Origin: Tubiluchus corallicola
Lineage: Eukaryota; Priapulida; Priapulimorpha; Priapulimorphida; Tubiluchidae
NCBI GenBank assembly: GCA_030141605.1
Contig: JAQGDQ010000505.1
Coordinates: 96,615 to 160,614, forward strand
Direction: 5' to 3'
DNA length: 64,000 bases
The position numbers were made by a program, and so were the translations under genes. The notes under the pieces are model-generated. The model did not search any database. It saw only the letters and a program-made list of their open reading frames with translations, and was not told the origin of the DNA. The first letter of the stretch is position 1. Every line of letters starts with the position of its first letter. This document shows, piece by piece, positions 56,466-64,000 of the stretch.

Positions 56466-59400
56466 TCATTTCGGTTTTGTTTCCTGGTCTGTAACAGTGC
56501 GAATAAAAATTGAATCCTCGGGAACGTCTTCCATTTCTTCTTGTTCATACATGTAAGAAGATGAGATTGCCAATAGGCTGCCATCTGGACTGAATGCAAG
56601 AGAAGATATGGAAGTGGGATATCTGCAAGCATAACAGCATTTTCCTAATAATATCATCACTTTCTTACATTGTCTTGTAATATATTTAGTAATGCACTGC
56701 AAATTTAACTAATTTGGTAGCTCCATTTTGTTGAAGCGCATTATTCGAGCTGTATGTTCTGGAGATTTGTTTGCTCAAAATTTTATGGAGGACATTCAGT
56801 TGCTGTTTCACTCTTTACTAAGTTCTGTGAATTAGTTAATTGAAGGCAACAGAGAAACTGAAAAGGTCTATCATGCAGGATTGAACATATAACCAATGAA
56901 ATCGCATGCAGCACAAACTTATTCGTCAAACTTAATTGCAAACTTTTACCTTCCTCTAGTCCAGACACATACAATTTGGCAATATTTATTTAATAAGTAT
57001 CTGCCAGGACAATAATCTAATCTTAGGGGACAGTTGGCATCACAACAAAAAAATATTTTAAGCCAGGACTGCAATTAGCAAATTATATGCAGGCGCAGCA
57101 TTAAGACATACCAGAAAAGACATTTAAAAGAAATAGATTTTCTCCTTTAGTGAACATGGTACAAAATTAAATATTATTAATAGTTTTAAGTTCTGCAAAT
57201 TATGCCAGTTGACCTCTGTTGAAAACTGTTCCCCTTTTATTGGCTTCTTGCTTCAGAAGGAAGTAACTGTGCAGAACCATTAAATTATGGACTAGCCGTT
57301 GTATACGAGACAAGTTTATACTAAATAACATTCAAAGAACTTTCCAGAGTCATCAGTTAACTATTTAAATTAGCACAGACAGACTGTTGGAGTTAAATCA
57401 GTTCAATTTGTTTCTATATTGTAGATTCTGCTGATTGCATCTAATGTTATATTTTCTACTTGTAAGTGAATGGATGTACCAACAAAGGCACCAGATTTAA
57501 AAATGGTTACAACAATTTCACTTGGTATTTCTAAAAAATTTTAACCAAGCCTTTGACATAAAAATAATGCTGTAAATATTTTTTTGGTTTGGTACATTAT
57601 TTAAGCTGTTAATTTCTGTGCTTTGGCCACTTTGTTAAGCTGACCCTGCTCTCCATTAGTTCAGCAATATCAATAAACCTAAATCACATAAGTTAGTAGA
57701 TGCGAATGCTGAATTACACCCATGAAGTTTTGCCCATCCGCAAATAGGGCCTTTGACATCATATAAATTCTCTGTATTTAATAATTCAATGTACAATCAG
57801 AACTAGGGTTTTACTGTATATATATATATATATATATTTGAAAAGTAATCACATATATATATATATAATCCAAAGATTTTGCAGCATACCAAATTTATCA
57901 AGTTATTCTAATGACACCAAATCAAGAAGTCATCAAGACATACAAAGAAGAAAATTCTATTAGCATAGATCGTTAACAATATCCTTTTACCTGTGGAATT
58001 GGCATAATCTCTTTTTGTTGAAACCATCCCAGATGTTCACAAATCCATCTGAGCCTCCTGTGGCAAATGTAGAGTGTTGCTGATGGAATGCAATGGCGTT
58101 GACAGGATAAATGTACTCCATTCCATTTTCTTTTATACGATGACATTTGAATGCATACTTCTTTTTCTGTGTTTCAGGACTTGGATCTAAATACTCAACA
58201 GCTACACGACCTAAAAGCGTTTTGGTGGAAATGAGTATTTTTTAGCATTCTTAATTAAATGAGTTTCTGTATCAAAAGTGACACTTTAGTTCATGCAAAC
58301 GGGGAACAAATTATCACAAATGTCAAAATGTCGTTGTATTGTGTTTTACACAACTTATATTTGCTGTGCGTATTAATAACTGGTTCACTTTCTAACTGTA
58401 ATAGTAGTAGTTCTAGCAAATCTACTTGTAATAGATACTAGCAGTTGCAACATAGGCATCAACATAGGTTGACAAACAGGTCATTTGACCCCCCCCCCCC
58501 TAGATCAGGCCTTCTAACGAAGGGGTTTGGAAGTTGGAACCATATAATAAATTCCCCAAGGAGTGTCGGGCCTTGGAAATTTCTGTTGTCTGCCTCATTC
58601 AATAGTACAGTGAATTACCAGATAAAAGTTTTTGTCACTCTGACTTAAAAGGTTAGGCCAAGGGGTCAAGCAGTCAACACGAACAGTGACAGCTTAGGAC
58701 GAATCTCAGCTGTCGATACAAAGGGAAGGATTAAAGTCTTCAACAGCGGCAAAACCATGCAGTCTCAGGTCATATCAGTTCAATGTTTGTCTGAAAAGTT
58801 TTTTCTTTTTTTTGAATCTCACTATTTTTATATAGCAGTTTTTACGATTTTTGCTCCGCAGAACTTGCGAGAATTCCGATGCTCTCCAGTCTTAACTTAG
58901 GAAAAACCATCGAGCACCCTGCTCATGAATGTTACTTTTACCGTTGATTATATGGTTCTTTTTGTTTAAATCCAAGAACCAGTTAGATGTCGGCATGTCG
59001 CATTTTATGGATAATTTAAAGCAATAATTGTGATAGTATGAGTATATCCTTTTGACTCCCCACTGGAAAAGTTGCAGCGGACGCCTTTGAGTTGCAGTAT
59101 TAGTAGATCTGAATAACTTGAAAAATAAACATCAACATTACACAAATGCATTCTTTCAAGCAATTAACCCGCAAGGTTAATAATGATAAAACAAAAAGCA
59201 AATGGGAAACAGCATTTGTAGGTATATACATACCCTCTATAGAGCTAAGTACATATCCTTGCTTATTTGGAAAACAACGAATGCATCTGGTCTGATACTT
59301 GAGACTAGACTCTCTTCGTTGCTGAACAAATCCCATGTTCCTTAGGTCCCACACAAGCACACGTCTGCCTGCTGTGCCCACAATCAACTTGTCGCCGCAT

Positions 59401-59948
59401 GTCGCCAATGTATACACCTAAAACATTCCAGCCAGTTAAGCAAAAGCCTTCATTTATCAATATTATATTGGTCCTAGGGCCTAGAACAACCCTCATCTGA
59501 AATCTAAACTTTATTTTTAGATAAACAAATCTATTCACAAATGGCTACAAAAATGTGTCGAAATAACGATATAACCATTCATCTTTGAGACAAGATTGGT
59601 ATTTTTTACACTAATTTCTAATATTTAAACACCTGTGGACCAATGCAGTGAGACCTTTTTGTAATATTAAGCAGTATACCCAGCACCATTCACAGACAAG
59701 GGGACATTTGCAGTTCTGTAAGCTATCAATAACTAGTGTTGTGTGGATACAGCTAAATCTATTGCGATAACAGTCCTGCAATATAATGACTGATTTGTAT
59801 TTTATCCAACTAGTTACTTTCAGCTTCAGCTATATTACAATTTTTTTAACGTGACAGATAGACTAAGGTTGCCAGGTTAGAAAATTAGAAATACGGGACA
59901 CTCTTAAAATTTTTCTCTATATTTCTATATCTATCTATCTATCTATCT

Positions 59949-59981
<33 letters not shown>

Positions 59982-61454
59982 TATATTCCTGTAAATTTAA
60001 ATATAAATTTATATGCCTAATACCCAGACCTATATACTGTATAAAAGTTTAGACACAAGTTAAAAACATAAAGCGAGGATTTTTATGGGTCCTAAAATCA
60101 TTTGTAAGTTATTCAATGCAGGCAAACAAATTCTGTAAAAGTGACACATTTGAAAGTATTTATTTAATACAGACTACAGAGAAATATTTTTAAGAGAATC
60201 TGAGAAAAGAAGTTATAATTACAATTATAATTATAATTAAAAGAAGTTATAGTTAGCTAACAACCATAAGAAGGTAGTAAGAACATATTTTTATTACAAA
60301 ATTTCAAAACTAACTATATACAGGACATTTGGGTGTCTGTAAAAGGTCAGTAAAGGACAGGGGACAAAATTATCACACATGGGACATGTCTCATATATAA
60401 CTGACATCTGGCAATCCTAGGATAGGCAGGTAGAAATTTGATTTTTATAGAAAAACAGAAAGGTGCATTTCTCAGTACTAACTAAATATTAAATTAATAA
60501 AAACAACATGATGTGCTAAAACTAGTTCTGAAGAACTATATGCAGACATGGAATGTAAAGGTGGATTATGGACACATGAACTGCCAGCTTTCTCTTGGAA
60601 AGCTGTAGATGCTTGAAATAAGGAATAATTAGTCTCCGAACTTTGGAAGATTTGTACTCCTCTAAATACATTTCTATCACATGGCCAATAAGCCACTTTT
60701 GAAAATCTAAGCCTTACATGTCCCGACTGTGTACTCAGTAGTTGGTGTAACATGAATATGACAAAAATTCGTACTTTGTCAGGTTGAGAAAATGAACCAG
60801 CACTACACGGTGTCCTTGGATCCCACAACTTCACGGTCATATCCCAACTTCCTGTAATGACGACATTTACATCTGGAGCATATTCTACGCAGCGAATAGG
60901 TGCCTCGTGTTGACCAACTATCATTTCTGTAAAGAAAAAGAAAACAGTCAGAAATCTGGGCAGTTAAAAGCTATGATAATAAAATTACGCACATCAGTTC
61001 TAAATCGTTCATTCATTTGTGTTACCAGTTTAATTCGAACTATGCACTATAAGGAAAAATTAACATTTTTTGTTTCAGAAAACCGGCAATACTTCTAAAG
61101 GTTTTCTAGGAGGTCCCGTTAGTTAGTAGATTTTTGAAAATTTACCTAAAGGTTGCTCAAAAGAGGCCAGGCATAGGAGCAAGCACAAAAGCTGCAAAGG
61201 TTTGCATTCTGTAGAGTCAAATTAAAAAAAACAGTGCTCTTTCTTTGAAGAAGAATAACAGGAAAAACAATGGAAGATTAAAGACTTTATATCATATCAA
61301 CAAATTAAATGTGTAAATGCTATGCATTATCCTTTTAGTCAACTACACAAACGAAGCATTCAAGCACGAATGGTATCTACTCACCTGAATTAGCATTGAA
61401 ATCAAACATTTTAAGATTCTGGTCCAGCCCGCCACTATATGCATGCACTGCATC
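56466..61454 (-). CDS. BUB3: Mitotic checkpoint protein BUB3, C-terminal 260 residues (N-terminus absent)
   Basis: WD40 propeller of the spindle assembly checkpoint that binds BUB1/BUBR1 and MELT-phosphorylated KNL1. Exons: 61454-61385 ([19 protein letters not shown]), 60926-60775 ([32 protein letters not shown]), 59417-59234 ([32 protein letters not shown]), 58210-57991 ([39 protein letters not shown]), 56622-56466 ([32 protein letters not shown]). Phases are consistent (1,0,1,2) and 783 nt encode 260 aa plus stop. Human BUB3 has about 328 aa, so roughly the first 65-68 residues (blade 1 and part of blade 2) are missing. No exon for them occurs between 61455 and the TBC exon at 61743, nor in the TBC introns that I read. 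The first visible exon starts in phase 0 after a normal tttag acceptor, so it is an internal exon. An AATAAA signal lies downstream. Confidence 0.93.
58489..58500. repeat. C12 homopolymer
   Basis: Twelve consecutive C in a BUB3 intron; a G12 run lies at 52991-53002 and a G-rich tract at 18279-18293. Confidence 0.95.
59863..60420. mobile_element. Candidate TIR element in a BUB3 intron
   Basis: Left end CTAAGGTTGCCAG and right end CTGGCAATCCTAG are inverted copies with 2 mismatches over 13 bp. A partial flank duplication (gataga / gatagg) is possible. A (CTAT)n(ACAT)n microsatellite lies inside at about 59931-59985. No ORF. Confidence 0.5.
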
Positions 61455-61570
61455 CTAAAGAAAAAATAGTGATGTGTATTGGGGGGTCCAGGGTGTTGAA
61501 AAAACTTTTTCTCATGGCTTGATATCTAATAGTGAGTAAAAATTGTTTTTCAATAAATAAATTTATGGAG

Positions 61571-61612
61571 CAATACGTAACTTCCAATTGTACTTCGTTC
61601 AGTTACGTATTG
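61571..61612. repeat. 12-bp perfect inverted repeat in the TBC/BUB3 junction intron
   Basis: CAATACGTAACT at 61571-61582 and its exact reverse complement AGTTACGTATTG at 61601-61612, with an 18-nt loop. It lies within the 288-bp interval separating the TBC exon from the BUB3 exon. Confidence 0.9.
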
Positions 61613-61742
61613 CTTAGATGCACTATAGATGTGCAATGTGTTTATCAATGATGGTAGGTATGGAGACATAGGGTAAAAAAAATTAAGTGTACCCTCTATC
61701 AAGTCGTATCTGAAATATTACCAAGTTAAAACTTCATCTTAC

Positions 61743-63843
61743 CTGAGCAAATTTCCTCTTTTCCACATGCATTTTAATTGATTCTATGTTCTTGAATAGC
61801 AGCTCGGGCATCATGTCTTCTGGCAGCTTGGTCAAGAATTGAGCAAGATGAATGAAATCAAGGTTGATGAGTATATCTTCATACATTCTTAACACACCTA
61901 CAATAAGAACGTGACTTTCTACACATCCAGTTGAAGGTTTTTTTACACTAATAAAGGAATGTATTCATTCTGTGATTGCTGACGGTTTAACAAAAAATGG
62001 CAGCAGTGCATACTAACCAAGTGCGCAACGAAAAAGAAACTCCTCTCCATCACGACAAAAAAGGTCCCAAACCCGTGATGCAATATCCAGAGGAAGTGAC
62101 TTGCTGAATATTGTATAAACCCTGCAAGATACAATGAAAATTGGCAGTTTGAATCCTGTGTTAATGCCATGTATGAATTACTTTCCTTTGACTGCCATGC
62201 TTATAAGAAAAACAGAGGCAAGAATATACGTTATTAATAAACACTCATTGCTGACTTACCAATCAATAAGATAAAGATCAGGAGTCAGATTGTGTTTTGC
62301 AAAGTGATCAAACAATTTGGGCAAGTTCTCGGCAAACATTTCTTCATAAGTACTAAAGTAAGCCTTCATCTGCAAAGAGCAAGGTTTTTCACATTAAAAA
62401 CTACTGTGATTAAGGAATTATTACCAGAACCATGCTTAAAGAAACAACTACTTAACGAAGCTAAGACCACAATTACATATAAAAACTGTACAAAAGTTTG
62501 TAATGTTGATTACTAAACAACAAAATTGCACAAGTAATATTTTTAATTAAGCATTTACAATGTAACAAGCACCACTTATAAAACTAAAGCTTGACTATAC
62601 ATAACTATTGTGTATCTAAAATGTGCAACACAATTTTTTTATTTTAAACTGCATATTGTTAAAAAATTATACATTACAAAATTTCTCAAGCACTGCAGTT
62701 TCGACAAAAATTGTATGTAAAAGTTTTTCACGCCATTTTTTGCATAAAAATCAATGGTACAAGCAATGCCAATGAACTTTTTTGTTTGTTTACAGGCATA
62801 AAGTCTGTCCTTACCAACCCATCATCCATTCGGAAGAAGGCTAGATGACACGGCTTGTTAAGTAGATTAGCAAAGCAGATAAATGCATCGTCAACATCAA
62901 CATTAAGTAGCAACATGGCAGCAACAAATGACATTCCTTGTACCTGAAAACACATCTTGTACTTTAACATTTGCATTAAGCCAAATAAGATCTAATTAGT
63001 TTCTCAAATGCATGGAGACATTTTCTGCACCACGATTTTCTGTTTCTGAAAAGTTAATTGGTAACTAATTAACTAATATCAGCTTTCAGATCCATGACAT
63101 AGTCACATTTTGTTTTACAAATCACCACGTCAGTTAAATTAAAGCCTTTCTACATACCACTGAGGTTACTACACAGAATATATAAATATGCATGTTACAT
63201 TTAAATATAAGGTATGTAAGTACACATGGTACATACTAATACAAACATTAAAATGTAGGTGACACTTACATAGCCAACATCGGGTCTATAGCAGGCATAA
63301 GCACCCAGCAGATTTTGCAATAAATCATGGTATGGACCGCCCTGCAAGCAAAATAAAATGGTAAGACTCAAAATAACAAAACATATATCAAACAACAGTA
63401 CATTTGATTTTGGCATTATATATATATATACATATACACACACGCACACGCACACACACACACATACACACACACATATAAAACTTCTCAAAACACTTAT
63501 AAAAATGCTTCTCAGATATAGCAAAGCAATATTTAAAGCAAATAATATGTAAAGCAAAATGTATTTATATGATATTCACCAAATAACAAACACGATTAAA
63601 AGAAAATGAATACTCAAGTAAAATGTTAGATGAGTCATAGTACTCAACCATTAGCTGCAAAAAAATTCTGCAATGCTTCTGAATAATTTCACATCAACTT
63701 AAATGATGCATGCCTAAGCAAATTTGACAAGCTTCCAAGCATTCATCCATATCTCACCTTTTGAAATATACAAAGACCTGGGAATGTCCTAGATACATCC
63801 AGACGTATCAATTCTACACTGTTTTCTCGACTTGTTGGTGAAC
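61743..63843 (-). CDS. TBC1D12/TBC1D14-like Rab GTPase-activating protein (3-prime part of gene; 5-prime beyond window)
   Basis: TBC-domain Rab-GAP; the closest match I recognise is the TBC1D12/TBC1D14 pair (RAB11/recycling-endosome and autophagy regulators). Exons: 63843-63758, 63341-63270, 62943-62815, 62369-62260, 62121-62018, 61897-61743, with phases agreeing at all five junctions. Motifs in order: [10 protein letters not shown] (the IxxDxxR arginine finger), [23 protein letters not shown] joined across an intron to [10 protein letters not shown] (the YxQ glutamine finger), [47 protein letters not shown] and finally KRKFAQ before gtaag. Both catalytic fingers are intact, so the domain looks active. 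In TBC1D14 the equivalent of this last exon is followed by about 20 more residues; that terminal exon is not recognisable here. A weak substitute is an ORF of 8 codons plus TAA after a tttcag acceptor (61709-61683). Confidence 0.88.
63418..63480. repeat. (TA)n(CA)n microsatellite
   Basis: Dinucleotide tract in a TBC intron; the short frames across it are artefacts. Similar (TA)n tracts occur at 48097-48121 and 57815-57868. Confidence 0.95.
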
Positions 63844-64000
63844 CTGGAAAACAGCAGAAGATTATAGGGATAGCCATTTAGAAGTAAAGCGTGTAAAATT
63901 AATAATATGCAACCACAATTTTTCATATTAGTGCAAGTGTGAGAGCTGACATGCTGAAGAAAAAAGAATACTGCATACACAGTGCTTCTAAATACAACAG

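Follow-up and report, generated by a model that had tools for sequence, protein, structure and literature searches.

The question raised by this locus is whether a TBC Rab-GAP gene and a gene for a WD40 propeller protein, lying one behind the other on the minus strand at the end of a Tubiluchus corallicola contig, form a fusion gene. The window, that is, the whole stretch of 64,000 nucleotides that was analyzed, comprises bases 96615-160614 of contig C1954, and window base 64000 is the end of that contig. The WD40 gene at 56466-61454 is putatively BUB3 and is called so here. The initial annotation described the TBC exon ending in KRKFAQ at 61743 and the BUB3 exon starting with DAVHAYSGG at 61454, both in phase 0 and with good splice sites, and our analysis confirmed these exon ends, phases and sites. 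The splice acceptor upstream of the BUB3 exon reads TTTCTTTAG and ends in TTTAG, and its downstream donor is GTGAGT. The two genes had also been thought to meet inside a single intron, and this view did not hold. The 288 bp between the two exons consist of three segments and are not one intron, because an adapter-holding stretch of 52 bases separates two intron parts. The features of the region are as follows:

61618-64000, minus strand: contig tail that is misplaced and duplicates C1366:440401-442781, running to the end of C1954
63841-63758, 63341-63270, 62943-62815, 62369-62260, 62121-62018 and 61897-61743, minus strand: the six TBC1D14-like exons of the tail
61897-61743, minus strand: the TBC exon ending in KRKFAQ, after GTAG and before the donor GTAAGA, phase 0
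61742-61618, minus strand: TBC intron part of the 288-bp interval
61617-61566, minus strand: the 52 bases that hold the adapter
61614-61569, minus strand: Oxford Nanopore ligation adapter, with the Y-bottom end adapter followed by the Y-top 3′-end remnant of the next molecule's start adapter
from the adapter stretch down to 61455, minus strand: BUB3 intron part of the 288-bp interval
61454-61385, minus strand: the most upstream BUB3 exon recognized on C1954, starting with DAVHAYSGG, phase 0
56466-61568, minus strand: BUB3 side of the join, an intron remnant and the remaining BUB3 exons to the stop codon (exons and stop codon read by eye); the 5′ exons are missing

Read on the minus strand, the central segment, 61617-61566, is CTAAGCAATACGTAACTGAACGAAGTACAATTGGAAGTTACGTATTGCTCCA. 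Positions 61613-61592 are identical to the bottom strand of the Nanopore Y-adapter at 22 of 22 bases, as its letters are printed in PMC9965538 and also in PMC7490894. All 26 bases of 61614-61589 agree with the beginning (26 of 28 bases) of the reverse-complemented start adapter, and the 14 bases of 61582-61569 are identical to the 3′-terminal 14 bases of that start adapter's top strand. The left edge of the adapter remnant lies somewhere within 61568-61566 and is not fixed exactly. By chance, the exact 22-mer would be expected about 4e-5 times in a genome of this size with equal base frequencies. In the window, it occurred once with up to three mismatches, compared with no occurrence in 100 shuffled windows. 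An end adapter followed by a start adapter is the order that would be expected of two molecules read as one. A scan of 61000-62000 against Rfam gave no match. The first idea for the 46 bases had been a dispersed repeat or a transposon, based on at least 37 and at least 38 other copies among the matches listed. This reading was dropped because the letters matched the adapter and many of the copies lay within tens of bases of contig ends. A fold-back (duplex) artefact was also rejected, as the right flank had no blastn match (1e-6) in the rest of the window.

Next to the adapter, the TBC side turned out to belong elsewhere. The stretch 61618-64000 matched C1366:440401-442781 on the opposite strand with 99.5% identity over 2,385 blastn columns, and the match stopped at 61618, so that the copy extends from a point three bases off the adapter to the end of the contig. 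Realignment gave six substitutions and one 2-base indel, none of them in the six shared exons, all of which are present letter for letter on C1366; blastn itself reported six mismatches and split or placed the microsatellite gap differently. The differences would most simply be explained by a second haplotype or by residual read errors.

On C1366, the TBC gene continues past the break. At a distance of 544 bases beyond the break point, where an intron of 669 bases ends, a CTCCAG acceptor is followed by a terminal TBC exon of 51 bases (443326-443376), which encodes VLSTHVEMLKDRNKES*. The initial annotation had stated that the interval on C1954 lacks the TBC terminal exon, and this was correct, as the exon is carried by C1366 and is absent from the window. 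A RabGAP-TBC domain (PF00566) was found in the TBC part with 4.7e-50, and the closest solved relative was TBC1D14 (2qq8) with 1e-107, the next one following at 2.9e-24. The alignment with PDB 2qq8 passes through the last splice (KFAQ-VLST versus KWAQVLTA). A search with the TBC family yielded the same three exon matches on C1954 and C1366, and at C1366:440062, upstream of the shared exons, an open stretch resembles the start of a TBC domain (by eye, unscored). Because the six exons, the terminal exon and the 2qq8 alignment are all found there, the TBC gene is, judged from its sequence, an ordinary gene located on C1366. The exons of the window together with the last exon of C1366 align with TBC1D14 (2qq8) across this splice; unlike what the join suggests, the gene is not a fusion and is taken for a normal orthologue. 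The 8-codon stretch at 61709-61683 had been proposed as an end of the TBC gene next to a truncated BUB3 copy. This proposal found no support, as the stretch is also present on C1366, where identity extends to 61618; at most, it could be an alternative TBC end on that contig.

WD40 repeats (PF00400) were detected in the BUB3 part with 2.7e-19, which is over the cut-off of the model. The THOC3 propeller model scored similarly to WD40 on this part, yet far under its own cut-off. When solved structures were searched with a query to which a presumed BUB3 N-terminus had been added, chains named 'mRNA export factor', which we take to be Rae1, the paralogue of BUB3, ranked higher than yeast BUB3. Like BUB3, the gene of the window encodes a WD40 propeller protein, and it keeps the remaining exons in order; in contrast to BUB3, it has no 5′ exons on C1954. 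The initial annotation had also claimed that the N-terminus of BUB3 is missing. No upstream exon stands out, as local tblastn of the window with two presumed N-terminal BUB3 queries gave later WD repeats of the gene itself and weak hits that are presumably noise. The loss would amount to about 65-68 N-terminal residues.

The N-terminal WD repeat and the other 5′ exons of BUB3 were likewise not found elsewhere in protein searches of the whole genome with three presumed BUB3 queries, and neither was a full BUB3 gene, which the proposal of a truncated copy had placed at another locus. The best non-self match to the BUB3 queries was a single ORF of 367 residues on C1809, presumably the mRNA export factor Rae1, which was reached by the first query at 34% identity. 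Therefore, a BUB3 exon of similar length would be expected to appear as well if it were well conserved, but short exons or a gap could hide the 5′ exons. A WD40 gene on C570 that we assume to be TAF5-like was also retrieved, and further weak matches were obtained on C510, C2137, C2308 and C1543. As a side observation, the Rae1-like ORF on C1809 is apparently intronless and may be a retrocopy or an intronless orthologue.

The TBC::BUB3 join is almost certainly a misjoin of a chimeric Nanopore read at a contig end and not a biological fusion. On the TBC side, proof of the misjoin comes from the duplicated tail and from the rest of the gene on C1366. A DNA molecule from the TBC1D14-like gene of C1366 and another from inside BUB3 would have been basecalled as a single Nanopore read, either because they passed the pore in succession or because they had been joined by ligation. 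In the middle of the read, this would have left the first molecule's end adapter and the final part of the second molecule's start adapter. We infer that there was a single chimeric read and that, with low coverage at the end of C1954, the assembler placed it there and thus attached 2.4 kb of TBC sequence to a broken BUB3. The in-frame splice across the join is due to chance, because both breaks are intronic and both introns have phase 0. Two points count against a misjoin, namely that the tail is not a letter-for-letter copy of C1366 and that the BUB3 side has no demonstrated true neighbor.

According to PMC6156371, an adapter located inside a read is a signature of chimera, and 2–3% of the reads in that study were chimeric. 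The case described there resembles the present one in that a mid-read adapter joins two molecules. The difference is that it concerned viral reads and barcodes, whereas in the present case the chimera persisted in an assembled contig. Residual adapters in assemblies appear in PMC9965538, with the same Y-adapter bottom strand left after assembly; there they were found at phage assembly termini, whereas here they are found inside contigs as well.

Several alternatives were weighed against the chimeric read. The initial annotation had proposed either a deletion that fused the two genes or an assembly that dropped sequence between two introns. A real deletion or translocation that fused TBC1D14 and BUB3, producing a propeller without its first blade, would find support in the good splice sites that flank the junction, with phase 0 in both cases. 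However, the junction of a genuine fusion would consist of genomic DNA only, and 46 bases of sequencing adapter were found at 61614-61569. In addition, the TBC gene has its own, proper last exon on C1366, and the joined TBC part extends only to the contig end. The fusion gene was thus rejected, and the chance that it is real is vanishingly small. It would be no larger for a TBC/BUB3 allele that was really rearranged and received the adapter bases at the same spot through a read or assembly error. A recent segmental duplication could have put a second TBC copy beside BUB3, and a second copy with few differences does exist. But its boundaries are the adapter on one side and the contig end on the other, and its few differences, all outside the six exons, also argue against this origin, which we regard as extremely improbable.

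The proposal of an assembly error was right in kind, but the mechanism was different: an untrimmed adapter joins two molecules and a tail of 2.4 kb is duplicated, and no sequence was simply dropped. If the TBC gene and BUB3 were true neighbors in the same direction, a loss of the sequence between them would be in line with the same orientation of both genes in the join. It would also be in line with the end of C1366, which follows the TBC stop codon at a distance of 8,456 bases, so that the true neighbor of the TBC gene may lie beyond the contig. Against this, a simple drop would neither insert an adapter nor make a second TBC copy. Furthermore, in these last 8,456 bases of C1366, no BUB3 N-terminus was detected by local tblastn, which gave only presumed noise, and no blastn match (1e-5) to the window was found. 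A dropped stretch between true neighbors is therefore very unlikely. Reading the join as a chimeric-read misjoin eliminates a spurious fusion gene and a spurious truncated BUB3 from this genome.

The occurrence of the adapter was then quantified for the whole assembly. With up to two mismatches, 77 adapter sites were listed genome-wide, compared with none for a reversed control pattern. The distance to the nearest contig end was at most 100 bases for 41 sites, 101-5000 bases for 16 sites, including the BUB3 junction, and larger for 20 sites, in a tally made without the lengths of the 16 contigs whose site lies at most 70 bases from the start. Examples are C1874:548693, C2049:131854 and C2214:983646. 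The assembly is thus flagged: the 36 of 77 sites located deeper than 100 bases within contigs need to be checked wherever gene order, fusions or 'lost' exons are concerned. After omission of the 16 sites within 70 bases of a contig start, 60 other sites were inspected for a second adapter arm. A 12-base piece of it was present within 34 bases, with up to two edits, at 40 of them (a count made without a shuffled control), and the site on C1874 is among the 20 that lack it. When the 60 sites were compared all against all, many of the flanks proved to be tandem repeats.

Four of the 35 other internal sites (more than 100 bases inside contigs) were tested for a misjoin by searching 1 kb around each, and the results were not uniform: one site, or perhaps two, has the appearance of a misjoin, and another has not. 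The site C2082:2401 is close to a contig end. All 499 bases queried of its left flank, which reach to within two bases of the adapter, show 100% identity to C448; the right flank resembles repeats. This layout is the same as that of the BUB3 junction and supports a misjoin. To the right of the adapter at C1874:548693, a stretch of 300 bases that begins 13 bases after the 22-mer has 100% identity to C1020, and the match goes no further. The first hundred or so of these bases resemble a dispersed repeat, and this site supports a misjoin more weakly than C2082. The site on C1152 has only repeat flanks and was uninformative. On C1076 (52600-53600), both flanks are adjacent on C1771 (4349-5164) at 97-98% identity. 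Here, the adapter is part of about 180 additional bases, and an inverted copy of nearby sequence, 133 bases long, lies in and beside this piece. The C1076 case is thus best read as an adapter artefact and not as a join of distant loci. Judged from these four sites, an internal adapter is a warning and not proof of a misjoin.

Two further observations concern the adapter sites. C478:2900-3900 and C790:104900-105900 carry the same adapter junction with flanks that are 97% identical over 934 columns, so that both contigs appear to hold one and the same adapter-bearing segment near an end. At four internal sites, runs of N begin at the adapter or within about 20 bases after it, and these may be scaffolding gaps.

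Irregularities of another kind were observed at two loci with TBC exon matches. C1234:1-1284 is a 99.8% identical inverted copy of C1234:3387-4670, 2.1 kb further in. TBC exon matches are found in both copies, and no adapter was detected there with up to four mismatches; the start of this contig is possibly a fold-back assembly end. On C1744, two TBC exon matches (879017-880495 and 940187-941671) form mirror-image pairs about 60 kb apart, which represent either a true inverted duplication or another fold-back.
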